Assembly (NCBI GenBank): GCA_030272155.1
Contig: CP126194.1
Span: forward strand, 1,665,501 to 1,729,500
Reading direction: 5' to 3'
Length of the DNA stretch: 64,000 nt
From: Tetradesmus obliquus
Taxonomy: Eukaryota; Chlorophyta; Chlorophyceae; Sphaeropleales; Scenedesmaceae
Shown here: one piece after another, positions 5,387-63,890 of the stretch
Layout of the letters: every line of letters begins with the position of its first letter
Numbering within the stretch: the first letter of the stretch is position 1
Notes under the pieces: model-generated
The model's input: the letters and a program-made list of their open reading frames with translations, nothing else
Databases searched by the model: none
Told to the model about the DNA's origin: nothing
Made by a program: the position numbers and the translations under genes

Positions 5387-5388
5387 TC

Positions 5389-5422
<34 letters not shown>

Positions 5423-7252
5423 AGTACCAGATGCCTCTTTGCTGCTGCTGCTACTGCTGCTGCCAGCCAGCAGCTTGTCTGCCTGCTCTTTGATAATAGC
5501 CCAGCCGCGCTGCACATGCTCCAGCTGCGTGTTGGCGTTGCCAACTGCAAAGCGGATAGTCAGCTTGCCCGACAGCTCAGTGGGGATGATGAAGATGACA
5601 CCTGCAGGCAGGCACAATGTTGCAGGACTAGTTGACCTAGGTGTGACAGACGGCTTTTGCACAGCAACAAAAGGCACATTCAAGTGCAGGTCCTCTGCAT
5701 CAGCATCAGGCAGGCCAGATTTCTAGGTCATGCAACCCTGGCATGCAAGCTACTTCAACACAGCAAACCACAGCAAACAAGCAAAGTCATGCAGTTCCAA
5801 AATCTGCGGCAGCATAACAACAGCATGCTGTAACACACCAGGCACGTACAGCTAGACCGTTCAAACTCTCACCCTGCGCATTCACGGCCTCCATGAGCTG
5901 CCTGTTTGTCGCATTGTCAGCTCCCTTGAGCCGGAAGCAGGTCAGCCCAAAGCGAGGCGGCACGGGGATCTCAAAGCGGCCGTCGGCCTCCACCTGCTGC
6001 GCAAACCACTGCCCCAGCGCGATGTGGTGGCGCACCATGCCCTGCAGCTTCTCCGCGCCGTACCTGCAGACGACGGTGGTTTAAAACATTGCCATATGTT
6101 ACGCGTTGAAAGGCCAGACCCTGGAGCCTGTGGCACATTATGCCCTGCAGCTTCTGTGCACCGTACTGCAGGCAGTTAAATGCATATTAGCAGTAATGCA
6201 GGTTGTGTTGGAGGCTGGCCCCCCAACCGGGAGCATTATGCACAGCAACAGAGCCGGGTTGTGTGTTGGAGCAGAGGTACCACTTCACAACCGTGTGCTG
6301 CCGCTGCCAAGATTCCGTCAAGGCACTCACATGCGCATGACAAACCACAGCTTGAGGGACCTGAAGCGGCGGCCTAGCGGGATCTGCCAGTCCTGCAGGC
6401 AGCAGCAGCAGCAACAGCAGCAGCAGCAACGACAAGCAAAAGCAGAAGCAAGATAAGCGATCACCGGCAGCTCATCAGACCATACAAACTGGCACAAGTG
6501 GGGTACTGCAGTGAATGCTATGCTTGTGCGCTGGGATGCAGCACAGCAAGCTGCGCGTTGCTGTGCATGCTGTCTCGCACATTGCCCTTAGAGCGAACAA
6601 TAGTTGCATTCATCAACTTGCTGCTCGACACACTTTGAGGCAGCAGCAGCAGCCACTCACCTTGTAGTCGTGCACGTTCCCCGTGAAGCGCAGGTAGATG
6701 GGTGTCATGCTGAGTGCCTCCTTCAGCCAGGTTGTGTCAGCCAGCCACATGGCGGCGCAGTCAAAGTTGACCAGCAGCCACCTGCAAAAATAACGCACAA
6801 AGAAACCACGGAAAGTTGGCTGAGGCCTGACAGCAGCCAGATGCTCAGTGCACATTCCACCATGCATTGAGATTGCGCATGCTGTACTAGCCTAACCAAC
6901 GTAGCTTAGCAGTAGTATCCTTACACTTGCAGGCTTTGTGATGCGCAGGAAAGTAGCTGATCAACAAACGTTGGACGTGAACCGTGCATGGGGCTGACGG
7001 ACTAGCTGCTGCTGCTGCTGCTGCTCACTTATGCGCGCTGAAGCTGGATGTCGCATGCTCCAGCCCCGGAAGCAATGACCTAGCATAAATCAACAGTGCA
7101 CATGCCTGATGGCCCAGCTGCTGCACTTACTTGTGCACGCTGAAGCTGAGGCTGTCCACATGCTCCAGCCCAGCAAACCAGTGCCGCTGCTCAGGCAGGA
7201 TGGAGGCACTGCCGGCCCATGCGGCATCAACATGCAGCCACACGCCATGCCT

Positions 7253-7297
<45 letters not shown>

Positions 7298-9009
7298 GCG
7301 GCAGCAACAGTTGAGTGCAGCAGATGAGGTGGCTGTCAGCAGCTGTTTATGAAGCTGTGCGACAACCAAGATGCAAACTAGACCTGCATCGAATGTATAT
7401 CCCTCATGCAATTCACGAAGTTTGTCTTTCCTTCTATTCTGTTGAAAATAAAAGCCCGCTAAAGCAGCCACTCACTGCTGGCACACCTTCCCCAGCTCTC
7501 CCACAGGGTCAAACCGCTGCATCCAGCAGCAAGAGGCACCGACTGCAGGGGGATGCAGGGACACGTTTCAAATACATTTATGCTTGATCCCACAAACCTG
7601 ACTGTGCTACCCACACATGCGAGATAGTAGGTGGACCGGCATGGAGCTCCTCCCTCTGGAACGACATTGAAACTTACATTCCACTCAAGCTGAATGTAAC
7701 AGCATGATGCCAACACCAGCTCAAGCAGCCACTCACTGCTGGCAGACCCTCCCCAGCTCCCCCACTGGGTCCACTGCACAGCTGCTGGTGGTGCCTATTG
7801 TAGCACACGCATAAAAGGGTATTAAACCCTGCGCCAGGTCAGCGGCTACGGCCTCCTGCAGGGTTTTGGGGTCCAGGGCATAGTCGTGCTCTGCGCTGGC
7901 TTTGAGCAGGCGGGTGTGCTGCAAGCCGCAGACCATGGCTGCCTTCTTGAAGCACATGTGCGCCTGCAGGGGCCGCAGGACAGGCAGAAAGAAGAGCAAC
8001 GGGATAAGTTGAGCAGCAGAGCAGGGGTGAGATGGGAAGGGGGAGCCAGTGCATGCACACAAGGACTAATACAGGAGCGTGAAAGGCACGGCGGCAGCTG
8101 CCTTGCATCTAGTAGTGACGCACGATGCCTGGTCAATGACACCAGCAGCTCCTCGACCAATTAACAATACAGTCACTGGCACAAGCGTTGCCAGCATCAT
8201 TGACGGCTCTGCAAGCACACAGCCGCACCTGCCGTAAGCCACCAGCTTCAGCGCCGTCAACACACATGCAGTCCTCTCATCCAACCTGAATGCTATCACA
8301 AGCACAGCGGCCCCGCAGACAGGGGTAATGATTGTATTGCAGCTGGTCAGAGCCGTACGCCAATAGCTGCAGCGCCGCCGCATACACACTCGTTGGCACA
8401 ATCATTTGGCCCTATACTTACAATGTCATCAGCCAAACAATCAGCAAAGCAATTGCACCTGGTCTGAGCCATATGCCACCAGCTTCAGCGCTGCCTCTGG
8501 TGGCTGCCCATCCAGCGCCCGCGCCCTGCCTGCCAGCATTGCCACAAGCACAGCCTCAACCACTTTGCAGAAGCTCCGCTCGCCACACAATGTACCTTTG
8601 GCAACAATGCACCCCACCTGGTCGGAGCTGTGCGTCAGCTGCTTCAGCGCTGCCACCACACATGATGCCTGCCTGCCTGTGTCTGCAAATGCAGTCCCTA
8701 CACACAATCATCAAAGAAAAACAGCACGCACCTGGTCTGAGCCGTATGCCACCAACTTCAGCGCTGCTTCTGGAGGCTGCCCATCCAGCGCCCGCGCCCT
8801 GCCTGCCAGCATCGCCACCAGCACAGCCTCACTGCTAGTTCCTTGAATAACACCACCGCCAGGCTTGGCAGCAGCAGCAGCAGCAGCGCCGTTGCTGCTG
8901 CTGCTGCCGTTTGCGGCGTCGGAGGTGGTTTGGTCTGCGCTGCTGCTGCTTGCTGCTGTGATGAACTTGTCGGGCAGGCCGCAGAGCTTGCCCAGCCAGT
9001 CCATCATCA

Positions 9010-9059
<50 letters not shown>

Positions 9060-24211: not shown

Positions 24212-24289
24212 GGTTGGCACTGGAGGCGCCTGGTCGTCCTGCTGCTGTCGCAAACACAAACACTGGTACAGCTGGACATCAGCACAGCG

Positions 24290-26609: not shown

Positions 26610-28739
26610 TTAGCCGCTGACTGCGCGAGAGCGGGCGACAGCAGGCCCATTGTTAGCAATAGCCTGGCTGCTGGCAGCTGCAGAGCTCTCAAACCGGCCC
26701 TGAGCAACAGCATTGGAGTCAGCAACAGCAGGACCCACTCCAGCATTCAGCGCAGAAGCACCCGACTTGGCATCTGCTGTTGAGCCAGCTGCTCTGGCCT
26801 TGTCACTCGCCAATGCAGGACCCACAAAGATACCCCCAACTGGCACAACCACAGCAGACGTACCAGAGATAGCTGTTGCAGGGCCGCAGCCACTGCCTGC
26901 ATTTGCAACGCCAGCTGCAATTGCTGCCTGGTTGGACAGTGCACCGGCCTGGTTGCCGGCGAATGCAGGTCCGCACTTTGTCACCGCATTAGCGCCGCTC
27001 TGGGAGATGGCCGGGCCGCCGAGTGCGACTGCCTGGCCGGATCCTGTGGCCTTCGCGCCAAATGCACCAGCAGCAGACGCCTGGTTGTTGGCTGCAGCTG
27101 GGCCGCCGAGGGACTTGGCAGCAGTGTTGGAGTTGGCAGCGGCAGCGCCGTTGTGCGCCATGCTTTTTGCGGATCCTTTGGCGTCTGAGATGGTACCCTG
27201 GGCAAGGACGTCAGCTTCTGCTGCCGCATTGCCGTTGAAGGACTCTGCATTGCTGATCGCAGATGATGATGCAGGTCCAAGGTTGGCCAGGGCTGCATTG
27301 GTGAACCAGATGCTGCACATGTTGTTGGCGAATGCAGTAGGGTTGCCGTTCCATGCAGGCCAACGCGGCACAGCAGGGAATGTCACAGCAGGTCCAGTGC
27401 TCCATGCCTGTGCCAGGGATGTAGCCATAGCTGTAGCTTGTGCATTGTTGAACTTGGGACGCGCCGAGGGGTTGGCGGCGGCTGTTGCTGCTGCTGATGA
27501 AATCGGCACGATGGGCAGCTGCTGAGGGCAGAAGCAGGGGACCTGGGCCTCAACTGGGAAGACGTATGGCATGAAGGTGTTGTAGGCGAACGGCTGGGTT
27601 GCGGGTGCCACAAAGCCGCAGGTTAGGGCACCACCGGCTGGGATGAATTGCTTGGGGCAGCGGAGGCCTCCTTTGAGGGTGTTGAGGTGGCGGAAGGCAG
27701 GGGTGGGGCCCAGGTGGAAGCCTGCGGCGCGCATGTTGAAGGGGGAGTTGCCGCGGTTGTAGACCTGCGGCATGCAGGAGAAGAAGGTGGCAGGAGCAGT
27801 GAGCAGGCAGGTCGAAGAGCTAGCAAGGGACAGCAGGCAAGGGTGCGGTTCCAGGTGTGTTGCAGGTAGCTGCAAGCTGTGGCGTTCTTCTGCTTTGTGT
27901 AGCGAATTGTGCAGCAGAGGCTGCGCTGATGCAATCATGCAAGCTTGCTGCGGCTGCAGCACCTGCAGCTGCCGCTGAATGTAGCATCTAAGCATGTCCA
28001 ATGCACAGCTGCTGGTATGTCTGCTGCTGCTGCTGCTGCTGCTGGCTCACCTGGATGTTTCCTGCAATCAGCCGGTGCTGCGGCATCATGAACGCCTTGT
28101 AGCCGCCAAAGGAGATGCCACCAGGGCAGGCAGTGGGAAGCCCCCAGGGGGTCCTGCCTGGTTTGATCTTGGTCAGCAGCTGACGGCCTGAGGCATCATT
28201 ATCAAGTGGCCTGGCAGCGGCAGCAAAACCTGCAGGCGTGCAACAAAAAGTTCACAGGACAAGGTTGCAGGCTGTGGTCAGTTGTTCTGTTGTATCGCTG
28301 CACACAATGATGGTCAGCGGCTGCCGGCCTGAGGCATCCCGTTCGAGTGGCCTGGCAGCGGCAGTAAAACCTACAGGGGCGGTGCGCAACAAGGTCGTAA
28401 GGCAAGACAGCAGGCTGAGGTCAGGTGTATGGTTGTGTCACTGCAAACTGAGGCACGAGCAATTAAGGCAAACCAGGCTGTTGTGCTGGTGATGTTGTGT
28501 TTCCAGCCGGTCTGTGGCTGCAGAGTGTTTCATGCTGTATCTGCCTTGCGTCCCTGGAGCTGCTGCTGGCAGCTGGCAGTGACACAAGTCTGACTAAGCT
28601 GAGCATTGCCGCTGCCACCTATCCATGCCTGAAGCCATGTGCATGTGATTGAATGAGAATTACCCATTACCATATCCTCCTGTCACGCACCTGCTAACAG
28701 CAGGCAAGTGATAGCCAGCAGTGACATCTTGGCAATCAT
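26610..28739 (-). CDS. Secreted Ala/Gly/Asn/Ser-rich repeat protein
   Basis: Three exons join in phase: 28739-28691, 28229-28051, 27764-26610 (stop), giving 460 residues. Exon 1 encodes a signal peptide (MIAKMSLLAITCLLLA). Residues about 17-185 form a non-repetitive region with Cys, Pro and aromatic residues (GGISFGGYKAFMMPQHR, RGNSPFNMRAAGFHLG, PCFCPQQ). From about residue 240 to the end the chain consists of short alternating repeats of A/G/S/N with recurring GPA or GGPA steps (KSLGGPAAANNQASAAG, ALGGPAISQSGANA, FVGPALASDKARAAG), about 20-25 residues apart. The pattern suggests an extended or beta-solenoid-like structural protein of the extracellular matrix. No family recognised. Intron 1 holds a second copy of the exon 2 start at about 28315-28380. 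Confidence 0.75.
28315..28380. repeat. Intron 1 copy of exon 2 5' edge
   Basis: Plus-strand GCCTGAGGCATC followed by GTGGCCTGGCAGCGGCAG and AAAACCT recurs here and at the true exon 2 start (28187-28232). The copy includes the decayed acceptor and lies upstream of the exon on the minus strand. Confidence 0.75.
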
Positions 28740-31852: not shown

Positions 31853-31883
<31 letters not shown>

Positions 31884-37845: not shown

Positions 37846-37919
<74 letters not shown>

Positions 37920-41833: not shown

Positions 41834-43989
41834 CTAGTAATGACGCATCATGTAACGCACCTCTGGGTTGTCCTTCCAGAAGCGGTAGTTAAGTGCAGTG
41901 GCGTAGGTGGTGAAGGCCAGGTAGGGCAGCATGAGCTGGCCAGCAGTGGCGTCCACCTTGAAAAACTCAGCAGTGGTGTAGGCCACAGCACCCAGCAGCG
42001 CTGCAGAAGGGGCAGAGGGCAGAACAAGGCGCATAAGTGCAATGTTTTGTTACAGATGTGTCTGCATGAGGCACGCCTGACAGGACTCGACAGTGGTGTA
42101 GGCCACAGCACCCAGCAGCGCTGCAGGCAGCGACAGATGTGAAAAAGAAGCAAAGTCAGATGTGCCACGGCTTGATGCAGAAGTAACGTCAGAAGTGGGT
42201 TCAGATGCAGATGTAAGGCGACACAGCAGCACTATCAGGTCACATGTTGCGGTTTGAGCAGCTGTGTCCCAGCTGCAAGGGTTGCATGCAGTGCAGAGCA
42301 TGTTGGTCAGCTGCACACAGCACCTCAACTTGGACTCAGCTCGCAGTTAGCTGCAGGCTGCTCCAAACTTACTACAGGTACGAGGGTCGCCAGTTCAGTA
42401 AGCCGCTTACTATATATACTATAGTGGCACATTAGCATTGGCTTTTACTAACAACAGCAGCAGCGCCTCACCCACAGTATCCACCTGCGCCACCCCAGCG
42501 CTTGAGCAGGAAGAAGATGGGCTGCCACACCAGGTTGAGCGCCAGCTGCGCCGCATACACATTGTGTACAACAAACACAAAGTTCATGGTAATCATGTCT
42601 TAGAAACCTGATGTCTCACCTACAATCTCAACCTGCGCCACCCCAGGGCGCTTGAGCAGGAAGAAGATGGGCTGCCAGGCAAGGTTGAGCGCCAGCTGTG
42701 CCGCATACACACCCATGGGGTAGCTGCGCCAGCCCGCAGCCTTGCCCACCAGGTAGGAGGCGTAGCCCATCACACCATACAGCACCGCCCAGGTCTGCAA
42801 GCAAAGCAAGATACAGGATATAGATAGCAGATGAACACAATTAAAACATGTTGCAGGCTGGAGACCGTTTAAGTGAGAGGTAGCTGTGCACAGCCCGCAG
42901 CCTTTCCTCCCAGGTTGGAGGCATAGCCCACCACACCATACAGCACCGCCCAGGTCTGCAAGCAGGGTGGCAGACAGCAGAAGGACAGCAACAGCATGTC
43001 ATGAAGATGGCTGGGTGGCTTGCCCACTACGTATGAGGCGTAGCACATGCCGCCATACATGGTGTGGGCGCAGCAGAGGTGCAGCAGAGGGACAGCAACA
43101 ATAGGTTATAAAGGATGGCTGGGTGGCTTGCCCACCAGGTAGGAGGGCTAACCCATGACACCATACAGCACCGCCCAGGTCTGCAAGGAGGGAAATAAAG
43201 CAAGTTAATGGCACTGCGTTGTACAATTTATCAGCCGATTCTGGAAAGGAGGCAACTGCATGAACGTATTGCGCAACAGAACTGTCTGTACCAGTATATC
43301 TAAGTCACAGCACAGTACGTGACAGCAGGGTGCTCTGCAGTTTAAGCAACACGAGCAAGCAAAGCGCTGCCAGTTTTCCTTGCAGAGTGGATACCACCAC
43401 CCACCTGGCCGAAGACTGGCGCGGGTGGCGCCCAGCGGGGCTTGCGCAGCTTGGGGATGTACCTGCAGGGGGCACATGCGGTGGTGAGCATTAATGCTGT
43501 GTTTCATTGGTGTTTGCCAAATGGCAAGATATGCAGGCCCATGTGTGGATGCTTTATAAAATATGTGCAGACGTTTCAGCAGCAGCAGGCAGCTGCGGCC
43601 GCTGCAAGGCACGGCGCAAGGTGCTTGAGCAGGCACGCGCAAGCCAGCACATGTCTGCAGATGCAGCTTGCTGTTATGCTGTCATGTTTTTCCATCGCCC
43701 ATGCATCAGCCGCACGCAAGCAATGCTGTCGTGCACTGCCACGCCTGAGGTCAAGTGAGCTGCAAATACAAGTAGGTGCATGGCCGCTGCACATCCAAGC
43801 AGCAGCTGTCATTGCTCTAGGAGCAATTCAACTGCTCTAGGTGCAGTTCACCTGCCAAGTTGGCTGCTGCGCTGGCAGCTGTCACAATTGCTCACCAGCC
43901 AAACACTGCAGGCAGTGATGCCAGGCCCACAACTTGCCCCAGTGCCAGAGGCACACCGAGGGACAGCATCTGCAGTGCAAACAGAACAA

Positions 43990-45323: not shown

Positions 45324-47071
45324 ATGTCAGCAGCTGCTGCTGCTCTCGGTGGACGGCACTGCTCTGCCTTTAGCAGCAGCAAATGCAACGCCAAGCATCG
45401 TAGCCATGTAATCTCAGCAGCATCTGCTCTCCATGTGCGGCAAAGCGTCGCTAGCAGGCATGCACCTGGTGTGCTGCCATGGCAGCAACAGCAGCAGCAC
45501 TACTTCAGCAGCAGTTTGCACCATAGCAGTCTGCAGATAAGCAGCCAGCAGCAGAGCAGTGCCAAGCCTCGTCACACTGTGGTGGCGTCTGCATCGGCAG
45601 CTGCTGCTCCAGGGTCTGGGGATGCAGAAGGTGCGGGTGCACCGCCCATCAGACTTTCCTTGCACTGCTGCCCAAGTCTGCTTGCAGAACTGCGCAATGT
45701 GCTTGCTTATCAGATAGCCACCAGCAGTTGCGTGTTGATGGTGCCATCGACGGGACAGTGATACCCTCACCTCTACTAGGAGCATGCCTGCTAGCTGTTT
45801 ACATCCCGATGCTGCTCTTGAGCTCTCGCCGCATGCACATCTGCAGATGACCCACACCTACCGGCACTGCATGCAGTTTATCCACTCGCATCCACACTTC
45901 CTGTACCGTAGAACTGTGTGAAAACAAGCAACCCTGCACCGCAATGCTGCAACATTCATGCAGTGGGTGGTGCCTGGTTCAGCCGTGTGGTGCTGCCGCT
46001 GGCGCTGGTGCTGCTGGTGTGCAACATGGACCGCATATGCTTGAGTGTGGCCATACTGCCCATGGCGCAGGAGTTTGGCTGGCCGGCAACAGTGCAGGTG
46101 CGGATATGGCGAAAGAGACGCAGAAAACTAGCGGCAGCAGCGGGGGATAGCAGCAGCATGGCCATACTGCGCATGGCGCAGGAGTTAACAGTGCAGGTAT
46201 GTGCAGCTGTAGCAAATTATACCACAAGCAGAGGCAGCAACAGCAGCAGCAGCAGCAGCAGCAGCGCACCGGCACCACCACCAGCAGCAGCAGCAGCAGC
46301 GCAGCAAGGGTCTCTGGTATGTCAGCAGCTCCAGTTTCGATTGCCAGCAAGTACCTAGCAGAGCAAACAGCAAGTGGTTCCCCTTTCGGTTGCGGCCACG
46401 GTTTACTTGCAGCTCAAAAGCTCTTGCTGGTTGTCACACCACTGAGCAAAGAATGTCATAATCGTGTTTTTGCTGCAGGGCCTGATCCAGTCAGCGTTCC
46501 TTTGGGGCTACACAGCCAACCCCACAAGAGGACGGCGCACCATGTCACTGTATTCAAACAATGTGTCATTCTGTCAATACTGCTGCAGGGCCTGATCCAG
46601 TCAGCGTTCCTGTGGGGCTACACAGCCACGCAGCTGCTGGGGGGCCACCTGGCAGACAAGTTTGGCGGCCGCGCAGTCATCGGCTTCGGGGTGGCATGGT
46701 TCAGCATCGCGTCGCTGCTGCTGCCGGCCGCGCTGTCGCCTGCAGTGGCGGCGGCTGGCATGACGCTGCCGGCGGTGCTGCTGGCACGCATGTGTGTGGT
46801 GAGTGGTGGTGCAGCGGCTGCAGCTGCTGTGTTGTTGTTACGCGGCGCATGCTTTTGTTTGTGCCGGCGGTGCTGCTGGCACGCATGTGTGTGGTGAGTG
46901 AGGGGATGCTGATGTCAGCAGAACGCATGGCCTGCTGCATGCCTTGTGCTGCCTGTATGCAAAGGCCATGTCATCAAGCCATCAAAGGGCATATGTGTGG
47001 ATCAGAGTTGCCGTTGATGACCATGAATAGAGCCAGCTCTTTGGTGCGCTCTCGTTTCGCAGTTGCACAGT

Positions 47072-47107: not shown

Positions 47108-47943
47108 AGGGCCTGGGTGAGGGTGTGGCGCTGCCCTCCATGAGCAACATGGTGGCTGCTCACGTGCCCGCATCAGCCAAGGCGCGGGCACTGGGCATGT
47201 CTTTCACAGGCTTCCACTCAGGTAAAGCCTGGGCGGCAGCAGCAGCAGCAGCAGCAGCGGGACAACGCTCTGCTGTGGTGTTGGTCAATGCCAGTTGCCG
47301 TCTGGGCTTGAGGCATAGCATCCACACTCAGCGCCAACAGCCGGCCTGTCGGCTCGTCTTTTGGATGATTCTTAGCCTGCATGACTGACTGATTGACTGC
47401 CAGACCAAATGCTTTTACCAGTGACATAATGAGTGACTGACTGACTGACTGACTGACTGACTGACTGACTGACCGCCTAACTGACTGACTGCTCGCAGGC
47501 AACCTGGTGGGCCTGGTGCTGTCGCCCCCCATTCCTGTCACATTTGGCTGGGAGCCCACTTGCTCACATGCCTGCCTACCTTCCTTGTGTGCTGCAGGCA
47601 ATCTGGTGGGCCTGGTGCTGTCGCCCCTCATCCTGGTCTAGCAAGTGACGGACTGCTCACATGCCTGCCCGCCTGCTTACATGCCCGCCTGTTTGCCTGC
47701 ATGCCTGCTTGCCTTGCAGGCAACCTGGTGGGGCTGGTGCTGTCGCCCCTCATCCTTGTCACATTTGGCTGGAAGGCCCTCTTCTACACCTTTGGCCTGC
47801 TGGGCCTGCCGCTGATGGCTGTGTGGCTGGCCATAGCACCCAAGCCCAACAAAGCAGCAGCAGCAGCAGCAGCAGGTGGTGACAGCACTGCAGAAGCACT
47901 GCAGCAGCAGCAGCAGCAGCAGCAGCAAGGTTCAGATGCATCT

Positions 47944-47977
<34 letters not shown>

Positions 47978-49215
47978 GCCAGGGTGAGGCTGTGAGTGTG
48001 TGGCAGCTGCTGAGCCACCGCGCCACATGGGCCATCATCATCGTGAACATTGTCAACCACTGGGGCTACTTCATCTACCTCAACTGGATGCCATCCTACT
48101 TCAGCAAGGTGGGCCCCTGCAACACATAAAATTGCTTCATTGCTGAGCGAAAGGCACCTTCAGATGCCGTGCGGAGTAGTGCAGTTGTTACAGCACTGGA
48201 TGCCATCCTACTTCAGCGGGGTGGGCGGCTGCAGGGCACTTGTGAAAATTTGAGAAAAGCAGTGCACTTTGAACTTGAGGCGCCGCACAGTTGGCGCGCA
48301 GATGCTTTGTAGTTCGTGCGGAGTAGTGCGGTGGTTACAGCCGGCCGGCAGTTGCCATGCCTTCAGGAATACATGCTCCTGCTGAAGTGGGCAGCTGTTT
48401 GTGTCAAACTCACTTTGCAGCCTGCATTGCTGTCCATCACCTTTGCATGCTGCCAATCATGTGACCCCGCATCTCCCACTCCGCCGGTGTGGCTGAACCC
48501 TGCGACTGAACCCTGCGGCTGAACCCCGCGGCTGAACCCTGTGGCTGAACCCTGCGACTGAACCCTGCGGCTGAACCCCGTGGCTGAACCCTGCGGCTGA
48601 ACCCTATGGCGGAACCCTGTGGCTGAACCCTGTGTGGCTGAACCCTGTGGTTGAACCCTCTGTCTGATCCCTGCTCGTAAACCCTGTGCCTGAACCCTGT
48701 GGCTGATATTGAACCCTGTGCAGGCACTAGGGTTTGACCTGCGCTCCTCAAGCTTCCTGTCCCTGGTGCCCTGGCTCGTCATGGCAGTCGGCAGCAGCGC
48801 AGCGGGCTTCCTCGCAGACAACCTCATCGCAGCAGGCAACAGCGTCACATTCGTACGCAAGGCCGTACAAAGCGTCTCGATGCTCGTGCCGGCGATCGCG
48901 CTGCTCTTCCTCTCAAACCCTACCATCTCGCCGGCCGCGGCAGTGACAGCGATGACGCTGGCGCTGGGCGTTACGAGCCTCGGACAAGCCGGCTTTGTCG
49001 CAAACATGTCGGATATCGCCCCGAAGCAGGCGGGGCAGATGTTCGGGCTGTGCAATACGTTTGGGTGTTTGTCGGGGATCTTGGGGGTGCTGTCGGTGGG
49101 TTTTATTGTGGAGCTTACGGGTTCGTTTGCGCCGGTGTTCCAGATAACGGCGGCGATGTATGTGGTGGCGGTGGTGTGCTGGAACCTGCTGTGCACGGGC
49201 GAGCGCGTTTTCTGA
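45324..49215 (+). CDS. PHT4/ANTR-type plastid anion (phosphate) transporter, MFS
   Basis: Six exons join in phase: 45324-45630, 45964-46097, 46589-46798, 47110-47221, 47720-48108, 48724-49215 (TGA), giving 547 residues. Residues 1-102 are Ser/Ala/Gln-rich with basic residues and few acids, like a chloroplast transit peptide. The MFS/SLC17 core follows with CNMDRICLSVAILPMAQEFGW, GLIQSAFLWGYTATQLLGG, HLADKFGGRAVIGFGVAW, GLGEGVALPSMSNMVAAHVP, NWMPSYFSK and MSDIAPKQAGQMFGLCNTFG. These are the hallmarks of plant ANTR/PHT4 proteins that carry inorganic phosphate or related anions across plastid membranes. The central cytoplasmic loop is expanded by poly-Ala, poly-Gln and poly-Ser runs. Exact substrate unknown. 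Introns 2, 3, 4 and 5 hold copies of exon edges. Confidence 0.92.
46157..46198. repeat. Copy of PHT4 exon 2 3' edge
   Basis: ATGGCCATACTGCGCATGGC followed by GCAGGAGTT and CAGTGCAGGT repeats the functional end (46049-46100), just downstream. Confidence 0.8.
46476..46530. repeat. Copy of PHT4 exon 3 5' edge
   Basis: CTGCAGGGCCTGATCCAGTC with the following GGGGCTACACAGCCA precedes the functional acceptor at 46588. It is almost identical over about 45 bp and could serve as an alternative exon start. A 3'-edge copy of exon 3 with donor lies at 46858-46905. Confidence 0.85.
47433..47473. repeat. (ACTG)n microsatellite
   Basis: About ten units of GACT/ACTG in PHT4 intron 4, continuing imperfectly to about 47492. 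Confidence 0.95.
47494..47640. repeat. Two copies of PHT4 exon 5 5' edge
   Basis: GCAGGCAACCTGGTGGGCCT and TGGTGCTGTCGCCCC recur at 47494-47545 and 47596-47640, each with its acceptor. The functional start is 47720. Intermediate sequence (CTCACATGCCTGCC) recurs too. Confidence 0.85.
48194..48232. repeat. Copy of PHT4 exon 5 3' edge
   Basis: ACTGGATGCCATCCTACTTC plus AGCGGGGTGGGC echoes 48083-48116, downstream of the exon. Confidence 0.8.
48488..48723. repeat. GCTGAACCCTGyG minisatellite ending in a splice acceptor
   Basis: About 15 units of roughly 13-15 bp with core CTGAACCCTG fill the end of PHT4 intron 5. The last unit reads TGAACCCTGTGCAG, so its end is the acceptor AG of exon 6 (48724). 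Confidence 0.9.
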
Positions 49216-50620: not shown

Positions 50621-50673
50621 GCTGGTGCTGCAGTTTGTGTCATCAGCATCCGATGTAAACAAAGGCAGCAGCA

Positions 50674-52251
50674 TCAGTTCTTGGCCAGCACGGGCCCCAC
50701 CCTGCGCAGCATGCCGATGGATCCGGCTGCACTTGGCGGTGTGGTGATGGGTGTGGTGATGTTGTATGTGAACAGCAGCGTGGCATTGAGCTGGGCGATG
50801 CTCAGGGTCATGCCAGGGAAGGCTGGGTTGTTTTGGGCTGTGATGGTGGCAGTCCAGGTGGGGAACCTGTGGCAGCGGCAGCAGCAGCAGCAGCAGCAGT
50901 GGTTAGTGTACAGTAGGAGGACAGGTTGGTGGGGAAGGTGGGGTTGTTTGGGGCTGTGATGGTGGCGGTCCAGGTGGGGAACCTGTGTGCGTGAGCGACA
51001 GCAGCCGCAGCCGCAGCAGCAGCACTGGCACCCTGTCCAGGGTGGCCTCATTACAAAAGCATTCAAGTTGCGGCTGGCTACGGCTACTCAGAAGTCAGCT
51101 CAAAAAGCTATGACTAAGATTGGCTCACCTGCCCTTGCTGTTGGGCCGGCTGCTGACCAGGGTGGCTTTGATACACAAAAACTGAATTTGTGATTGGCTA
51201 CGTATACTTGGAACTCAGTTCTAGTAGCTACCAAGATTGGCTTACCTGCCCTTGCTGTTAGGCCGGCTGCTGACAAGGGTTGCCTGCAGGGCAGTGCTGT
51301 TGCCCACGCCACCGCCAGCAGCAGCATTCAGAGATGCACCTGCGCCAATGTAGTCCTTGCCTCCTTTCACATGAGCCATGGCCCCTGCATGGTGTGCACG
51401 AGTATGCCGTTTGTTATATTGTTACATTGAAAACGATGACCGGCTTCAGTGAAGCTGCCACTGGGTGGCAGTGCAGTGAGTGGCAGAAGCAGGCTGGTTG
51501 CAACAACCGTGCAGCAAGCAGGAGTAACGCTGGCGCAGCAGTTGTATGACAGCGCATGTGTGCGGCTTTGTCTAGCTATGCAAGCGGGACCATTTGCTGC
51601 ACTTCCCGAACAGATCTGCGTCTGGACTCAAACAAGCTGTGGCACTGCATGCAAGCTCAGTATTCGCAGGCACAGCATCTGTCTAAGCCGGAGACCACAT
51701 CAATGCTGCTGAGAGCTGAAATAGACTCACAGTAGCCCCGCACAGCCCCGTCTGCGGCAACTGCTTCCCACAGACCTGCAAGCAGCATTCAAGACAACAA
51801 AGCAGGGTGCAAGGGATCACCCCTTGATACAGCAGCAACTGTGATACAGCAGCAACTTGCTGGTGCTGACCGTACATGTTAACTTTGTAAGAATCATGAG
51901 CAGCTGCCGACCCTTGTCTGGCTGACGCATATAGTCTGTGCAACCAATGTGCAAGCATGGTATTCAAAGAGTGCCCACGGCTGATGCAAGGTTACTGCTG
52001 CTAACAGCAGCTGCTCGAGCAACCAACGCACCAGTCAGGGGAGCATGCTTTTCCACTGGCATTGACCTAGCTGGCGTGTTGCCTGCAGCCGGCTTGTTGC
52101 CTGCTGCTGGCTTGTCGCCTGCCACTGGCTTATTGCCTGCAGCTGGCTGGTCGCCTGCAGCTGGCTTCTGTGGTGCAGTGGCATTCTTGTCTGCACTGGC
52201 AAGCGCCAGGCAGCCCAGGAGGGCAAACGCTACGATGAGCTTGCTGTTCAT
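50674..52251 (-). CDS. Small secreted protein, unknown function
   Basis: Four exons join in phase: 52251-52032, 51775-51731, 51384-51246, 50866-50674 (TGA), giving 198 residues. Residues 1-20 are a signal peptide (MNSKLIVAFALLGCLALASA). Next comes a short repeat region built on KPAAGN/KPVAGD units (about residues 28-58), then a conserved-looking domain beginning LWEAVAADGAVRGYWAMAHV and continuing through KDYIGAGASLN and ATLVSSRPNSKG to TWTATITAQNNPAFPG, LSIAQLNATLLFTYNIT. NxT/NxS sequons (NST, NAT, NIT) suggest glycosylation. No Cys-rich pattern and no family recognised; the beta-strand-like C-terminus could be a small Ig-like or jelly-roll fold. A CCGCAG just before the ATG hints at a 5' UTR intron. 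Edge copies lie in intron 3 (51117-51166 and 50943-50985). Confidence 0.7.
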
Positions 52252-56308: not shown

Positions 56309-58041
56309 TCACTCAAACAGCCCATCAATGTCATCCTCCTCAGCTGCAGCAGCCCCGCCGCCGTTCTCTGCCGGTGCCGCTGCAGCAGCATAGCCGCCTT
56401 CTTCCTCGTCATCAGACTCAAGCGCCTGCCGCTGCCGCTTGCGCGGCTGTGCAGCTGCTGCCTCACCTCCCTCCTGCAGTGGGTGACAGCATGACGCACA
56501 AGAGCAGAGCAATCAGTCATGGTTGAGTTTGGTGTGCTGTAGCAGCATAACACATTACCCTACTGCGTGAACATGCCGAGTGCTGCATTGGAGAATGCAA
56601 GCTCCTGGCGCGTGTTCACCACAGTACATATTGCTCAGTTGCTGGTGCCAGCTTCCTTTCTCACCTCGCCAGCATCATCGTCATCGTCAGCAAAGAGCGC
56701 ATCCACCTCAAAGCCTCCCTCGCCAGGCGCCTCATCCATCACCTCATCCCCATCACCAGCAGCAGCAGCAGCATCGCCAGCATCACCATCATCATCCTCT
56801 GCTGCTGCTGCTCGCCGCTTTAGCCGGCCCCTGCCACTGCCAGCTGCTGCTGCCGCGCCTGCGTCCTCATCAATATCGCCGTTTGCTGCTGCTGCATCGT
56901 CATCGCCGCCATCGCTGCCAAAGAGCAGCGCCTCATCGATGTCCTCATCGTCACTATCCAGGCCCGTGCGCCGCAAGTTCTCCTGCAAAGGCAAAAGACA
57001 GCATGCAGTGAGTGACTAAGCAATTGGGGCTGAGCCTCATCGATGTCCTCGTCATCACTATCCAGGCCGGTGCGCCGCAAGTTCTCCAGCAGGGTATGGC
57101 AGCATGCAGCATTTGCACAGGGATGTTTGAGTCAACAAATGGGACCAATTTAATAAACGAGCCTCATCGATGTCCTCATCGTCACTATCCAAGCCGGTGC
57201 GCCGCAAGTTCTCCTGCAAGTGCAGTACAGCACCGCCCTTGGAGGTGACAGTGGGATGTGGGCAGTGAAGACGGCACCAGCACTATGTGCTGGGCTGCTG
57301 TGGTCACCGGCTGTACATCTGCAGAGAAAAGTACCGTGAGCCAGCAGGCACATTCTCACTCCAGTAAACGTCATGCTTCAGCAGCAGCAACAGCAGTAGC
57401 ACGGATGATGCGTAGCAGCACCGCTTCTGCCGATCATCCAGTCCTGCGCGCACCTGCACATCATCATCGTCCTTGCGCGCCTTCGGCAGCCGCTCAATCG
57501 GCTGCGCATCGTCCACATAAAAGTCGCCCATGTCTTCCCCAGCAGCGCCCTTCTTGCCGCCGCGCTTGCGCTTGCTGCCGCCCTTGCCGCTGCCGCCGCC
57601 AGCATCGCCCTCGTTGCTGTTGTCTGCCAATGCTGCCATGTGGCGGCTGGCCCGCAGCTGCTCCAGCTTGGCCTTAGAGTCCTCCAGCGCCCTGCAGCAT
57701 CATCATCATCAGCAGCAGCAGGAGCAGCAGACTGAAGCAGATACAGCAGTTGATGCCATGTGGCGGCTGGCCCGCAGCTGCTACAGCAGACACGCTGGGC
57801 ATCAAGCTGCAAACCCACCACCAGCAGTCACAGCGCCTGTAGCATAGTTACCAGCAGCTGCATCGTACTGCAGGCTGCTGCTGACCCAAAAGCACCACAG
57901 CAGCCATGCAGCCATGCCCAGCCAACAGCGTCATCTGCTGCCACTGCACTCACCGCTGCGCTTCTTGCATCTTGCGCGCATCAACCGCTTTGCGCTCTGC
58001 TGAGGCGGTGTTCTCTTTGAGCTTGCGCTGCGCCTCAGCCT

Positions 58042-58077
<36 letters not shown>

Positions 58078-58424
58078 TCCACAACATCAAAGACAGCAGC
58101 AGCAGCAGGGATCAAAGTCAAATTGAGTAGATGTAGACGCGGATGTTTGCAGCACAGCACAGGCTGCAGAAGCAGAGCTGCCTGAGCTGCAGCAGCCAGC
58201 ACAAGCCTAATGGTAGAACCTTTGACACTAAAGCAATAGGCCATAACCAGATTGCAAACAACACAGCTGCTGAAGAAGCATCCAGAAGCTGCCAGTTGCG
58301 AGCGCTGCCCAGGCAGCAGCAGCAGACTCACCGCCGCCAGCTCCGCCTGCCGCACTTTCTGCTGGCTCTGCACCATGGCCTCCTCCGCATGCGCCTGGCG
58401 CACCAGGTTGGCGGCCTGCAGCAG

Positions 58425-58471
<47 letters not shown>

Positions 58472-61116
58472 CACACAGCAACAGCAGCAGGACAGGACTC
58501 AATCATCAGAGCCTTGCAGAGGGCAGGTGCTGTCCACACTCAAATGCAGCTGCAGCTTGTGGCCCACACAGGTGTGGGCGATGCCATAATAATAGCTGCC
58601 GGGCATGCTTGCATGAAGAACTCTGTTGTCTTCCCAACGGTGCCTGTTTCATGGCGAGCAGTGGTGCAACATACCAGGCAACAGCACACTCATGCTGTGC
58701 ATGACCTCTGTTACCTGGTATGTTGCACCACTGCTTCAAAAAAGTGATGAGATGATCACTATTATGAAGCAGGCACCTGCTTTGGTGGCTGCTTTTGTGC
58801 ACTGCTGCTATCTGATGCGGTGTCACCCGGACATTGATCCTGAGGTCCTTCTGTCCTCTCAGGCTATTGCTCAAGCTATTGATGATGCTGATGAGTTCTT
58901 CTCTGCGGTTTCTTCTGGCGGTTTGGACGATGACGAGTTGTTCTTCGATGTTTCCTCCCCCTATGAGCCTCTCGTTGGCTCCTGACTGGGGTTCCCACTC
59001 CTCGTTGAGTGGAGCATGTAATGTGATGTAATGTAATGCTGGGCAGCTGCTGGTGGCAGGACTACCGGCGCCCCACAGCAGGCAACACACGCAAGCACAA
59101 CATGCATGAGGCAACAGGCAGGCATCTGCTGTACACGTAATGTGCAGCGCCACTTATGCTGGGCAGCTGCTGATGGCAAAACTGTGCGTGCAGCACAAGA
59201 GGCATGAGGCAACAGCCATCTGCTGTACGCATGCTGCAGAGTGCCGCTCACGCTGGGCAGCTGCTGGTGGCAGAACTGCGCGTGCAGGGCCAGCTTCTTG
59301 GGCTCGATGCGTGTGGCCTCCTTGCCCAGCGCGTGCAGCTGGTTGAAGATCTTCTCAGCCTGCAAGCAGCAGCAGCAGCAGCGGCGCATAGTTGCTCATT
59401 ATTGATACGTCCATACACAAGATGAGTGGGCCAGTGAGCCGTCACAAGCGGATGGATGGGATTCATCTGGGGCATGGACCAACACCACGGCAACTGCCTC
59501 CCCAGTGCAATTTGCATCAAATTACACTGCCTGCCCCAAAACAGGAGCAAAGACACCTAGAACACGACCACACACACAAAGCACCCACACATGCACTTCA
59601 CGCACCTCCATGAGCGCCACCTCCGCGTCCGAGTAGTCCTTGAGCTTGGCAGGGTCGCCGCTGATGTACTTGCGCTTGAACACCTTCACTGCCCACTCCT
59701 GCACAGGAACAGCAGCGCCACAAGCCCAAACCAGCAGCAGCTAGTCAGCAAATGCTGAGCCTGTCGAGAGACGGCATATGGCATTTCCAGATGCACACGT
59801 GGCGGACGTTTTATTGCCTGCCGCAGCAACAGCGCAACAGCAGAGCCATGTGTTGCGTGAGACAAGGACCCGCCATCAAGGACTCTTCCAAAAGTGTAGA
59901 ACAGCCCAACACTTGCTGCAGCAGCAGCAGCAGGATGCCTCAAACAGCTGCTTGCTGAACATGCCGCATTGTCACGAGGAGTGCCATGCGCATAAATACC
60001 ATCAGCTGGCCAGCAACCCACCTGCAGCACGAAGGCCAGGTTGAAGCGCACTTTGATGTCTGCCGGGGCCAGGTGCAGCGCCTTGAGCAGCACGCGCTTG
60101 GCGGGCAGGTGGTCGCCCGCGTCGTGGTGCGCGCGCGCCATGTACAGCAGCACCTGCAGTTGCAAGAAAGCCACAGTGGTGCAGTGTCAGTGTCAGTGTC
60201 AAAGCACATGAGAGACAAGCGCCATGTACAGCAGCACCTGTAAAATACCATAACAGCGCACAGCAAAGCGTCCGTCACAGCACACATCGATTCGGCACAG
60301 CCAGGCATATACAGCAGCACCTGCGCAGTTGTGGCGCATCGCACAGCTGTCCAACACGAGCGTAGCGTAGGTCTACACAGCACAGAGTGATTCAGCAGAA
60401 GCATGCCAACATAACGCCTGTATGCTTATGCGCCCCACACACCTGTGTGTTCGTGTGATTGTGCAGCTTTGAGGCAATGCTCGTACATGCAGCACAAAGC
60501 TGTACATGCCGCAGAAAGCCCTCACGGCAGCACACAATGCACACACAACATAACTTTTGTATGCTCATGCGCCCCACGCACCTGCGAGTTCTTGTGGTTG
60601 TGCAGCTTGGAGGCGTGCTCGTACATGGTCAGCGCGTCGCTGTACTGCTGCCGCGCCAGCCACAGGTTGCCCAGGTTGACGTAGGTCTCAGGCAGCCGCA
60701 TAAAGCCCCTGGTCTTGGCAGACGCGCGGATGACCTGCGGCAATACATGCACAAAAACATGACGCATTGCAAGTCGGGCCCGGGTGGAGGTGGGTTTTTG
60801 GGAGCGGCAAACAAGGATAAAAAGCATGACTCATTGCAAGTAGTGCCCAGGGTGACGTACAAGTCTGGCGGCAGCGCCAAGCCCTTGGTCTTGGCGAATG
60901 TGCAAAATGCTTGCGGGGTGAGGCCGCAGCAGAACACAAGTTGAGCATGGTTGGTACATGCTTTGCTGTTGCCAACGTAGTTAGGCTGGAAGTCAGTCTA
61001 TATAGTGTTGTGACCCGGCAGCAGCAGCCAGCGATGCGCACCTCATCAAAGGCCTGCTTTGCTGCTGGCATGTGGCCCAGCCAGGCAGGTGCCCAGGCCA
61101 TTTCAGCTAAGACAAG

Positions 61117-61148
<32 letters not shown>

Positions 61149-61418
61149 GCCAAACAGACAGCGCGCACCTCATCAAAGGCCTGCTTTGCTGCTGCCATAT
61201 GCCCCAGCTCAGCCATGCAGGTGCCCAGGCCAATTCAAGCCAAGGCAAGAGCAGCAGCAGCAGCCAGCCAGACATACAGACAGCGCGCACCTCATCAAAG
61301 GCCTGCTTTGCTGCCGCCATATGGCCCAGCTCAGCCAGGCAGGTGCCCAGGCCGTTGACGGCGTAGATGTTGTCGGGCTGCTGCCGCAGCACCTCGCGGT
61401 AGATGTTCAGCGCCTGGC

Positions 61419-61455
<37 letters not shown>

Positions 61456-63890
61456 GCAGCAGCAGCAGCAGCATGCGCGAGAGGTTGTTCAGGGCACACA
61501 AACTGGTGTCAGACGTGACAGCTGGTTGCATGCAGATTTGAGGTCTTGAGACCTATCAGCAGCTGTACTCAGGGGCGCTGCCCCCACAAAACATGACTGC
61601 AACTGGCACGCTCAGCTGACCATAACTTCAGCACCTGCCACCGTGTGCAGAACATGCGAAGGTTATGCCACTTCAAGAACAAAGGCACCATGTGTGCGGT
61701 GTTTGACACGGCATCTGCTGCAACAACAACAGAGGTCCCTGCCTTGTAGATGTAGTCTCGCCGCGTCTTGTCGGCGCCCGGGTTGCGCGCGGAGCGGTCC
61801 GCCGGCAGCGCCGCCATGACCACGTTGGCGTGCGTGAGCTGCATGTAGGGGTCCTGCGCGCCCTCTGCGCCCACCTTGCCCACGCACTCGCGCGCAGCAT
61901 TGAGGTCCCTGCAGTGTTTGTAGAGTCATTTGTTTTGTATTAGCAGCGGGCAGCAGAGCTGCATGTAGGGGTCCTGCGAGCCCTCCGCGCCCACCTTGCC
62001 CACGCACTCACGCGCAGCATTGAGGTCCCTGCATTGGTTGAATGTGATAGTGACATGACACAGTTTTATCAGCAAGTGAACTTGCATGTAGGGGTCCTGC
62101 GCGCCCTCCGCGCCCACCTTGCCCATGCACTCACGAGCAGCATGCAGGTCCCTGCAGTTTTGTTGTTAAGCAGTTGACGACAGGTGGTACATTAAGGAGC
62201 AGAGCAGCAATGCGCTGATGTTGACATCATGACGCACAGGAGCGCGAGCAGAAAGATGCGGGCATGCACAGCGGCAGGTAATGGCGCCCTCACCCGCGCT
62301 CCATGTGCAGTGTGGCCAGCAGCGCCTGCGCATCAACGTGCCCGCCAGCCTGCGCGGTGGCCTGCGCCGCCCAGTGCGCCGCCTGCTGCATGTCGCCCGC
62401 TGCTTTCGCCATGGCGCTGAGGCGCAAGTAGCAGTCGATGTAGCCGGGGAACTGCCCTACAAGGTTGCGGTACATTGCCTCAGCAGCCTTGAGGTCTCCT
62501 GCAAGTTGAAGATTGACACAGGGTTTGATGCACTGGCAGGTGCTCAACAGCCTCGTGTTGCAGAGTAGTGAGCAGAAGAGTGAGTCGGTGCGTGCGCTTC
62601 ACAACGACAGACCACAAACGGTTTCATGGCAGTGCTACCCGTGCACTCAATGTCATGCGCCCATTGTATCTCGGTGTGTGATGCATAAATCGTGCATGCA
62701 GCCTCATCCGTGGCCTCCTGCAGCCGCGCCATATTGTAGCCCATGCTGCAGGCGCGCCATGCTAATTGTCAACAACCACACAATAATCGACACTTATGCT
62801 ACTGCATCATGAACATCCTGCAACATGCGCACCCATGGACTCCTGCAGGCGCACCATGTTGTAGCCCATGCTGATCGTCAACACACCAAACAATCAGCAT
62901 TTCAGGCGCAGCAATCAGCATATCACGCGCAGCATTAAGCACATCACGCGCAGCGCGCACCCGTGGCCTCCTGCAGGCGCGCCATGTTGTAGCCCATGCT
63001 GCAGGCGCGCCATGCTGATTGCCCACAATCCGCACAATCATCAGACACTTATGCTACTGCATCATGCACATTCTGCACAATGCGCACCCGTAGCCTCCTG
63101 CAGCCGTGCCATGTTGTAGCCCATGCTGACAGTCAACAAACCACACAATCGGCATACCACAAGCAGCAGTAACCATGTCACGCGCACCCGTGGCCTCCTG
63201 CAGGCGTGCCATGTTGTAGCCCATGCTGATGGTCTGCAGCGCGCTGGCGCTGCCCGGGTCTGCCTTGATGGAGGCCTCCGCCTCATTCATCAGCGCCATG
63301 GCCTCACCCACAGCGCCAGCCCTGCGAACAAGTGGCAATACGGCAACAGCGCAGCACGGCAACAATGACGATTGCAGAAGTGCTGAAAGGCGTAGCGTCG
63401 CTGTTTCATTCATCAACGCCATGGCCTCACCCACAGAGCCAGCCCTGCAGTGATGCAACGCAATAGAGCACCGAAACTGTAAGATTTGACTCAACAGCCA
63501 CGGTGCAGAAACAGGCGTGTACTTGACGCTTCAGCCTCGTTCATCAGCGCCATGGCCTCACCCACAGAGCCAGCCCTGCAGTGGTGATGAACGGCAGCAG
63601 GGCAACACAATAACGATGCAAGACCTGCCGGATGTGAACACGAACTGGCGCTCTGCAGTACTCTTTGCTTGCTAGCTTTGCATGATGCGCCATTAATCAA
63701 TGTTTCCATGCGAAGGCCACCGCCACTGTCGCCAGAAGTCCGCCCATTGCATCCCGCCCCCCTCCCACCTGTACTTCAGGACGGCCGTGTTGTTGAGCAG
63801 CTTTGCAGGTACCACCGGCACCGCCTCATCCGCCTCAATGTCCCCAGCCAGCTGCGCAGCCAGTGCATCGTCCCTGGCCTCAGCTTGCTG
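56309..63890 (-). CDS. CTR9: CTR9 homologue, Paf1 complex TPR subunit (partial)
   Basis: Fourteen exons join in phase: 63890-63769, 63321-63188, 62498-62294, 61908-61743, 61413-61291, 60734-60582, 60153-60022, 59698-59606, 59359-59252, 58415-58332, 58039-57954, 57691-57454, 56982-56665, 56473-56309 (stop). They encode 708 C-terminal residues; the N-terminal TPRs lie beyond the right edge. CTR9 is the TPR scaffold of the Paf1 complex in transcription elongation and histone modification. Landmarks are PAKLLNNTAVLKYR, MGYNMARLQEA, GQFPGYIDCYLRLSAMAKAA, QQPDNIYAVNGLGTCLAELG, PETYVNLGNLWLARQQYSDA, VLLYMARAHHDAG and KALHLAPADIKVRFNLAFVL. A charged coiled coil and an acidic C-terminal tail (SDDEDIDEALLFGSD, EEDDIDGLFE) follow, as in plant CTR9/VIP6. 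Intron 4 appears to use a GC donor (AAG|GCAGGG at 61742). Most introns hold exon-edge copies. Confidence 0.92.
57032..57219. repeat. Two copies of CTR9 exon 13 5' edge
   Basis: Copies at 57032-57090 and 57163-57219 of the start encoding ENLRRTGLDSDDEDIDEA. The functional acceptor is 56983. Codons are almost unchanged. Confidence 0.85.
57741..57785. repeat. Copy of an internal/5' part of CTR9 exon 12
   Basis: GCCATGTGGCGGCTGGCCCG and CAGCTGCT match 57632-57665 inside exon 12. The copy lies upstream of the exon's acceptor at 57692. Confidence 0.75.
58626..58985 (+). other. 119-residue ORF inside CTR9 intron 9, opposite strand
   Basis: A plus-strand open frame ends with TGA at 58983. Its last about 85 residues (SDEMITIMKQAPALVAAFVH, CHPDIDPEVLL, AIDDADEFFSAVSSGGLDDD, ending SPYEPLVGS) look like a genuine acidic protein C-terminus. 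They use T-ending codons (TCT, GTT, GAT) unlike the neighbouring genes. The intron is unusually long. No family recognised; a captured gene or transposon fragment is likely. A perfect inverted repeat overlaps its start. Confidence 0.4.
58657..58735. repeat. Perfect 22-bp inverted repeat (hairpin)
   Basis: AGCAGTGGTGCAACATACCA(GG) at 58657-58678 is exactly complementary to 58714-58735, with a 35-base loop that itself contains CAGCA/TGCTG complementarity. It lies inside CTR9 intron 9. It could be a small-RNA precursor or abutting transposon ends. Confidence 0.8.
59030..59180. repeat. Two copies of CTR9 exon 9 3' edge
   Basis: GCTGGGCAGCTGCTGGTGGC-type sequence (functional 59250-59285) recurs at about 59036-59062 and 59157-59190, downstream of the exon. 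Confidence 0.75.
61036..61230. repeat. Two copies of CTR9 exon 5 3' edge
   Basis: GCGCACCTCATCAAAGGCCT and GCTTTGCTGCTG with CATATGCCCCAGCTCAGCCA recur at about 61158-61225 and 61036-61095. The functional end is 61291. Spacing is close to 125 bp. Confidence 0.85.
61955..62153. repeat. Two copies of CTR9 exon 4 5' edge
   Basis: GCATGTAGGGGTCCTGCG...CCACCTTGCCC...GAGGTCCCTGCA recurs at 61958-62034 and 62083-62153. The functional exon starts at 61908. Copies keep an open frame for DLxAARECVGKVGAEG. Confidence 0.9.
62705..63129. repeat. Four copies of CTR9 exon 2 3' edge
   Basis: TGGCCTCCTGCAGGCGCGCC...TGTTGTAGCCCATGCTG recurs at 62705-62750, 62827-62876, 62955-63000 and 63081-63129, downstream of the functional end at 63188. 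The period is about 125 bp. Confidence 0.9.
63408..63578. repeat. Two copies of CTR9 exon 2 5' edge
   Basis: TCATCAGCGCCATGGCCTCA and CCCACAGAGCCAGCCCTGCA recur at 63408-63448 and 63537-63578, upstream of the functional acceptor at 63322. Exon 2 is therefore echoed on both sides. Confidence 0.9.

Follow-up and report, generated by a model that had tools for sequence, protein, structure and literature searches.

Tandem copies of exon edges in the introns of Tetradesmus obliquus and their probable origin by duplication across exon-intron junctions

Short segments duplicated within genes are said to alter exons or to create introns, and small tandem duplications at nearby nicks or breaks have reportedly been described by Vaughn and Bennetzen (2014) for rice and by Schiml (2016) for plants. 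Such duplication and the intron change resulting from it are already known in single genes and in vertebrates. Here, the introns of the green alga Tetradesmus obliquus were studied in a stretch of 64,000 bp (C4:1665501-1729500 of an assembly of 104.66 Mb in 17 contigs; this whole stretch is called the window) and in loci elsewhere in the same assembly. Many of these introns contain same-orientation copies of the edge of the adjacent exon. Junction-spanning tandem duplication accompanied by intron growth is well supported by the results below and is spread over the assembly. Among the titles and abstracts listed in a literature search, no report of a genome with introns stocked by exon-edge copies was found.

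The reported within-gene duplications are, as here, short, and some are said to carry splice sites or whole introns; the present case differs in that edge copies add length to introns already present, with the protein apparently unchanged. In intron gain of the type described by Rogers, a duplicated exonic segment provides both splice sites of the new intron. The units described here contain a junction and, in 44 of 72 pairs at z≥2, intron sequence as well. In the potato RdRp study, a tandem duplication likewise carried an exon-intron junction, but cases of that type yield a new intron, whereas the copies described here sit inside an intron and require none; an 83-bp tandem duplication within an intron is mentioned there in passing (PMC4974935). 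The repair-mediated duplications of vertebrates are likewise proximal (median 147 bp); that set had 4 partial exon/intron donors, and the Ka/Ks of two duplicated exons did not differ from 1 (PMC2671141). Inserts within 50 bp of their template were excluded from that set as tandem, whereas tandem same-orientation copies dominate here, and unlike those duplicated exons, the copies described here have a low 0-fold/4-fold ratio. The copies do lie within the 5 kb from the donor that is characteristic of repair-mediated duplication. However, such capture implies non-tandem placement in either orientation, and this was not found, since direct repeats outnumbered inverted ones by 150 to 18 and the spacing was about one unit. 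Small tandem duplications derived from nicks or breaks are a candidate mechanism for short tandem units, although the excerpted passages of the source draw no tie to exon edges or intron growth (PMC8355091).

When the window was compared with itself by BLAST, 85 direct repeats versus 3 inverted repeats were found within 3 kb, and 2 direct repeats were farther apart. The comparison set consisted of 20 stretches of 10 kb, namely 2 stretches flanking the window and 18 blind loci chosen regardless of content (1.00-1.01 Mb on each of the 17 contigs and one extra on C1). In the blind loci, 150 direct versus 18 inverted repeats were found within 1.5 kb, and a dinucleotide shuffle, performed once per blind locus, gave 0 direct and 0 inverted repeats. 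On average, 14.7% of the bases of the blind loci were in local direct repeats versus 0.6% in inverted ones. The spread was uneven: 3 of the 18 blind loci had no direct repeat, and one (L018) was mostly satellite. Tandem Repeats Finder (TRF) detected arrays with periods of 94-314 bp, for example at 30402-31423, 34132-34480, 35377-36096, 61036-61353, 61839-62163 and 62708-63186. Exon-edge copies were close-set and of the same orientation, as tandem duplication predicts. The proposal of the first-pass annotation that same-orientation tandem copies span the junctions was borne out in the window, and the pattern extends, unevenly, to the 18 blind loci across 17 contigs.

Genes were modelled by a self-trained two-strand hidden Markov model (HMM) written for this analysis, and a Pfam family above the cut-off was found for 10 of the 10 proteins submitted, several of which were hand-spliced or hand-trimmed. 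The models retain errors, and exon-edge copies were often called exons. The satellite at the far left of L021 was left out of the gene-based counts, and heavily masked exon ends were left out of the edge-match, junction-copy and splice-dinucleotide counts.

To compare exon ends with flanking introns, 45-bp ends were aligned after masking of CAG runs, and a Smith-Waterman score of at least 36 was taken as a match; random introns, introns of the opposite side and exon middles served as controls. The 3' edge matched the downstream intron in 16 of 94 cases in the window region and in 24 of 182 cases in the blind loci, whereas it matched the upstream intron in 4 of 95 and 10 of 185 cases, respectively. 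For the 5' edge, matches numbered 15 of 97 (window region) and 18 of 186 (blind loci) in the upstream intron and 3 of 96 and 8 of 180 in the downstream intron. The opposite sides thus matched at a rate of 3-5%. Exon middles matched the downstream intron in 2 of 38 (window region) and 6 of 81 (blind loci) cases and the upstream intron in 0 of 40 and 1 of 82 cases. The best of 20 random introns reached a score of 36 in 0 to 3 queries per class, so exon ends favoured their own flanking intron over random ones.

It had been claimed that 3'-edge copies with the donor always lie downstream of the exon and 5'-edge copies with the acceptor always upstream. Among predicted exons of at least 100 bp, the size to which the direction, nearest-pair, spacing, divergence, array and clustering analyses were limited, 105 donor copies were downstream versus 17 upstream, and 61 acceptor copies were upstream versus 5 downstream. 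Wrong-side junction copies amounted to 22 of 188, and among those listed, many were decoys called exons. Deletion of 59 presumed decoy exons, a step that biases the count towards the rule, left 139 copies on the rule side and 7 on the opposite side; of 294 edges of each kind, 48 donor edges and 28 acceptor edges then had a copy. The rule therefore holds nearly, but not strictly, always. As a separate observation, long CAG/CTG runs abut intron edges (e.g., 7253-7310, 58042-58076 and 58418-58490), and the learned acceptor profile upstream of the exon is three-periodic (TGC TGC TGCAG).

The median spacing of copies was 124 bp (166 intervals), with 78% of the intervals within 80-160 bp and a second peak at about 250 bp. 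Repeats in modelled non-coding sequence had a median spacing of 151 bp, with 51% within 80-160 bp (n=37; satellite locus L018 left out here and from the high-identity-repeat and intron-length analyses). Because this spacing is similar, the unit size seems to be a property of the duplication process and not of exons. Spacings divisible by three were scarce (37 of 166 overall; 20 of 87 nearest, p=0.024), but when exons of at least 60 bp, which were also used for codon-position counts, were included, the figure was 33 of 116 (p=0.15). This weak scarcity looks like selection against in-frame misuse of the copy.

Copies located solely via exon bases 10-50 from the junction often kept the splice dinucleotide, as had been claimed: the donor GT was intact in 15 of 19 copies and the acceptor AG in 16 of 20. 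On the donor side, similarity extended about 30 bp into the intron in the ungapped profile set. Among the nearest pairs, 42 on the donor side and 30 on the acceptor side, the intron part of the unit was homologous at z≥3 in 18 and 11, respectively, and at z≥2 in 24 and 20, so the inclusion of an intron half in the duplicated unit is clear in part of the cases only (limits on spacing and length left 72 pairs for these scores, and 72 of 83 for intron-part divergence). Multi-copy families, with up to nine copies and often a regular period, took in 36 of the 75 nearest pairs.

The count came to 139 copies over roughly a quarter-megabase, and 64 of 294 merged introns contained a copy. Among introns of up to 5 kb, median length was 520 bp with copies versus 263 bp without (p=8e-10); at 1, 2, 3, 4 and 5 copies it was 418, 570, 703, 740 and 996 bp (29, 18, 3, 10 and 3 introns, respectively), and length correlated with copy number (Spearman 0.74, 64 introns). 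The lengthening was about one unit per copy, which supports the earlier suggestion that introns grow via junction duplication. For T. obliquus, a GC content of 57% and a mean intron of 462 bp have been tabulated, and for three other Sphaeropleales and Chlamydomonas, mean introns of 230-302 bp (PMC5966456). The GC content across the window was 54-61% (4-kb steps). In a glutamate-cysteine ligase gene (L007), one exon edge occurs six times in the DNA and once in the solved homologues, and for CTR9, the alignment to the solved protein starts within the third of three copies. Since these homologues hold a single copy, the surplus DNA copies should be spliced out.

Seven of nine genes in the window had been said to carry edge copies. 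Six did so in the tally (decarboxylase, TMF, TSPO, PHT4, the 198-aa gene and the CTR9 region), and the phosphatidylethanolamine-binding (PEBP) gene and the CAP gene had none in it. The seventh, the 26.6-kb secreted-protein gene, scored zero because its model stops short, but a 139-bp repeat (28170/28311) is present by BLAST. The copies are as follows (d, distance in bp between edge and copy).

8455..8558, minus strand: decarboxylase (Pfam Pyridoxal_deC), 3' edge and donor of exon 8732-9010 repeated 273 bp downstream; 94.2% to 8728-8831 (104 bp); d=114, 273 and 389 for the junction copies, with weaker copies nearby
5873-6063 exon of the decarboxylase, upstream copy of its 5' edge at 6130..6171, minus strand: 83.7% to 6027-6069; d=103
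7014..7066, minus strand: decarboxylase, 3' edge of exon 7131-7250 repeated downstream; 82% to 7117-7171; d=102
28311..28448, minus strand: 26.6-kb secreted-protein gene, tandem copy of 28170-28305; 77% over 139 bp, spacing 141
30131..31317, minus strand: TMF-like gene (putative name), 3' edge of exon 31318-32198 repeated as an array with periods of about 124 and 266 bp; TRF, BLAST and nine junction copies
34132..34352, minus strand: TMF-like, 3' edge of exon 34409-34536 repeated twice downstream; 78-90%; d=128, 267
35377..36171, minus strand: TMF-like, exon edges repeated as an array that takes in the 5' edge of exon 35180-35396 itself; TRF period 314 bp; BLAST
36813..37173, minus strand: TMF-like, two downstream copies, 272 bp apart, of the 3' edge of exon 37366-38744; 93-95%; d=272, 544
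42085..42126, minus strand: TSPO (Pfam TspO_MBR), upstream copy of the 5' edge of exon 41861-42000; 95.2% to 41965-42006; d=120
42467..42561, minus strand: TSPO, 3' edge of exon 42642-42794 repeated downstream; 89.7% to 42615-42711; d=148
42879..43192, minus strand: TSPO, 5' edge of exon 42642-42794 repeated twice upstream; BLAST; d=161, 386
46471..46518, plus strand: PHT4-like (Pfam MFS_1), upstream copy of the 5' edge and acceptor of exon 46589-46798; 47/48 to 46581-46628; genome search matches its own locus alone
46862..46900, plus strand: PHT4-like, 3' edge and donor of exon 46589-46798 repeated downstream; 39/39 to 46767-46805; d=95
47490..47638, plus strand: PHT4-like, 5' edge of exon 47720-48108 repeated twice upstream; BLAST, alignment; d=122, 221
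48195..48233, plus strand: PHT4-like, downstream copy of the 3' edge of exon 47720-48108; 89.7% to 48083-48121; d=112
50932..51019, minus strand: 198-aa secreted-protein gene, 5' edge of exon 50677-50866 repeated upstream; 87.5% to 50816-50899; d=116
51033..51166, minus strand: 198-aa secreted-protein gene, 3' edge of exon 51246-51384 repeated downstream; 76.9% to 51153-51283; d=117
57034..57219, minus strand: CTR9 region, 5' edge of exon 56665-56982 repeated twice upstream; BLAST; d=104, 231
60407..60505, minus strand: CTR9, 3' edge of exon 60582-60734 repeated downstream; 82%; d=139
61018..61231, minus strand: CTR9, 3' edge of exon 61291-61413 repeated twice downstream; 84-87.5%; d=122, 249
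61956..62163, minus strand: CTR9, 5' edge of exon 61689-61908 repeated twice upstream; 81-91%; d=120, 243
62698..63129, minus strand: CTR9, 3' edge of exon 63188-63321 repeated four times downstream (exon hand-spliced; the HMM model fuses the nearest copy onto the exon); BLAST, junction copies, homology to solved CTR9
63406..63608, minus strand: CTR9, 5' edge of exon 63188-63321 repeated twice upstream; BLAST; d=123, 254

Other repeats were also observed. The region around the end of the 198-aa gene is present in three tandem copies of about 117 bp (50406-50728), located at and beyond its predicted last exon, which indicates that duplication is not confined to splice junctions. From about 9.8 to 5.6 kb left of the window lies the L021 tandem satellite, with a period of about 284 bp, and the satellite arrays of L018 (about 279 and 345 bp) resemble it. 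Minisatellites were found at 24285-24652 (50-bp unit), 48488-48706 (13 bp), 21661-21788 (18 bp) and 2797-2985 (11 bp).

We consider it probable that the copies were produced by recurrent junction-spanning tandem duplication with units of about 80-160 bp, the exon-joined copy staying in use. According to this account, the nuclear genome would undergo many short tandem duplications, typically with units of 80-160 bp, and a unit lying across an exon-intron junction would place a second exon edge and splice site within the intron. The site joined to the exon body would stay in use and the protein would be preserved; because it is this site that is kept, 3'-edge copies would lie downstream and 5'-edge copies upstream. 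Each event would lengthen the intron by about one unit, repeated events would lead to arrays, and the decoy copies would presumably be spliced out. The duplications may arise via repair of closely spaced breaks or nicks, or via slippage.

Several observations weigh against this account. The ungapped profile on the acceptor side was at background just outside CAG (20 cases), and no intron-part homology was visible (z<1) in 14 of 42 donor-side and 8 of 30 acceptor-side pairs. Repeats of at least 90% identity included exon sequence in 42 of 56 cases, whereas random placement predicts a fraction of 0.48; this excess is not expected from uniform duplication with purifying selection. Between exons and their nearest copies (75 pairs that are not fully independent, the TMF array contributing several), 234 of 360 mismatches were at codon position 3. 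Differences were found at 149 of 777 4-fold sites (0.19) and at 109 of 2589 0-fold sites (0.04), giving a ratio of 0.22 (0.17-0.28), and identity of the intron part was about 0.60 (shuffled, 0.475) whether the exon part differed by <3% or by >15% (72 pairs). Since this identity was flat, the exon parts must be younger than their own flanks or preserved against them. Neutral simulation with the identical detection step gave a 0-fold/4-fold ratio of 0.57 and a position-3 share of 0.44, and the simulated intron-part identity was 0.95-0.82 for close copies, falling to 0.68. The ratio of 0.22 versus 0.57 and the uncoupled intron identity lead to rejection of neutral decay, so a maintenance step must be added. 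By reasoning, conversion alone, without allelic diversity, should also yield a ratio of about 0.5. Mismatches were not clustered as patchy conversion would imply (longest clean run of 21.5 versus 21.8 expected, 59 pairs), and patchy gene conversion is accordingly unsupported.

The low ratio was also seen in the 46 partial copies not called exons (0.23, 0.17-0.32; window region, 0.17, 0.10-0.27; blind loci, 0.31, 0.20-0.48). Third-position mutation bias does not explain it, since position 3 differed 1.8-9.8 times more often than positions 1 and 2 even when base and CpG context were matched. In arrays without exon-called copies, changes private to intronic copies had a ratio of 0.47 (0.28-0.78), and changes private to the exon, a ratio of 0.03-0.11. 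The copies are less constrained than exons yet not free, although array data alone sit nearer neutral than the nearest pairs do. Junction duplication followed by plain neutral decay, which accounts for position, direction, arrays and intron length, is contradicted by the synonymous excess and the uncoupled intron identity when these are set against the simulation, and is extremely improbable. The earlier idea that the copies simply grade away was not supported.

In the extended form of the duplication account, the copied exon half would stay exon-like while the intron half decays, the supposed upkeep being short-range conversion that re-templates the copy from the exon in a genetically diverse population. 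By reasoning, re-templating from a diverse exon pool would in principle reproduce the ratio, the uncoupling, the arrays and the divergence between copies, but the mismatches were not patchy. The exon parts would either have been kept similar, by conversion or coding use, or have descended from diverged alleles. That introns grow by junction duplications of about 124 bp, with exon halves re-templated or held to coding sense and intron halves turning over, is proposed only tentatively.

Coding sense could also be under selection because the copies are functional, as alternative exon edges or small exons. The exon-copy ratio of 0.22, the ratio below 1 on private branches of arrays and the fact that the gene finder called 27 of 75 nearest copies exons would fit this, but 68 of the 75 spanned <0.6 of the exon, which likewise speaks against tandem or mutually exclusive whole exons (the 7 larger ones could be such exons). 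Splice sites on the other side of copies were barely enriched relative to random intron places (score≥4: 64% versus 55% and 39% versus 31%), copies without such a site had a similar ratio (0.26, 0.17-0.41, 20 pairs), and the solved glutamate-cysteine ligase and CTR9 homologues hold a single copy. Moreover, coding constraint alone yields the ratio but not the uncoupling, its simulation giving intron identities of 0.92-0.72 for close copies, whereas 0.59-0.62 was observed. Functional copies are considered unlikely. Both ratio and uncoupling would be reproduced by an assembly artefact or hybrid origin in which exon edges of a diverged haplotype were placed in series by the assembler or by unequal exchange: exon-copy differences resemble those between two coding alleles, 4-fold divergence was near-homogeneous over 68 pairs (chi2/df 1.21), and intron parts were uniformly distant. 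However, about half of the nearest pairs belonged to families of at least two copies, which exceeds two haplotypes; divergence at 4-fold sites was higher between copies (0.253, all pairs, non-independent) than between exon and copy (0.182); some units were near-identical throughout (266-bp unit, 30783-31423); and 2 of 2 unit queries had no other location in the assembly (the search skips very common words). The assembly into only 17 contigs also argues against an artefact, and this origin appears slightly less likely still than functional copies.

Intron breaks could instead have been repaired by copying a nearby exon edge without tandem duplication. Proximal repair-mediated duplications are known, with the median given above for vertebrates (PMC2671141), and some copies do stop at the junction without intron homology, but the orientation bias, the direction rule, the regular periods and the intron-part homology fit tandem duplication and not random capture, and in some young units, contiguous exon and intron parts fill the whole spacing. 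Such templated insertion is regarded as improbable. An origin from spliced mRNA or retrocopies was rejected, as the flanks of copies reached a score of 24 against a nearby exon edge in 17 of 166 cases versus 60 of 166 for the intron of the exon itself; many of these 17 lay in arrays with members called exons. Near-identical introns dispersed over many genes, as expected of introner-like elements, were likewise not seen, the two unit queries tried both matching their own locus alone.

The maintenance of the copied exon halves is an unexpected additional result. The low 0-fold/4-fold ratio in seemingly non-coding pieces is puzzling and suggests that these are maintained from the exon as template, have a hidden coding use or reflect deep diversity among alleles. 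If the duplication account is true, it would provide a concrete, datable route by which introns lengthen, and the genome would be a natural experiment with very many near-perfect competing splice sites. If the copies are maintained, the introns of this alga would hold snapshots of exon edges with splice sites that the spliceosome must ignore.

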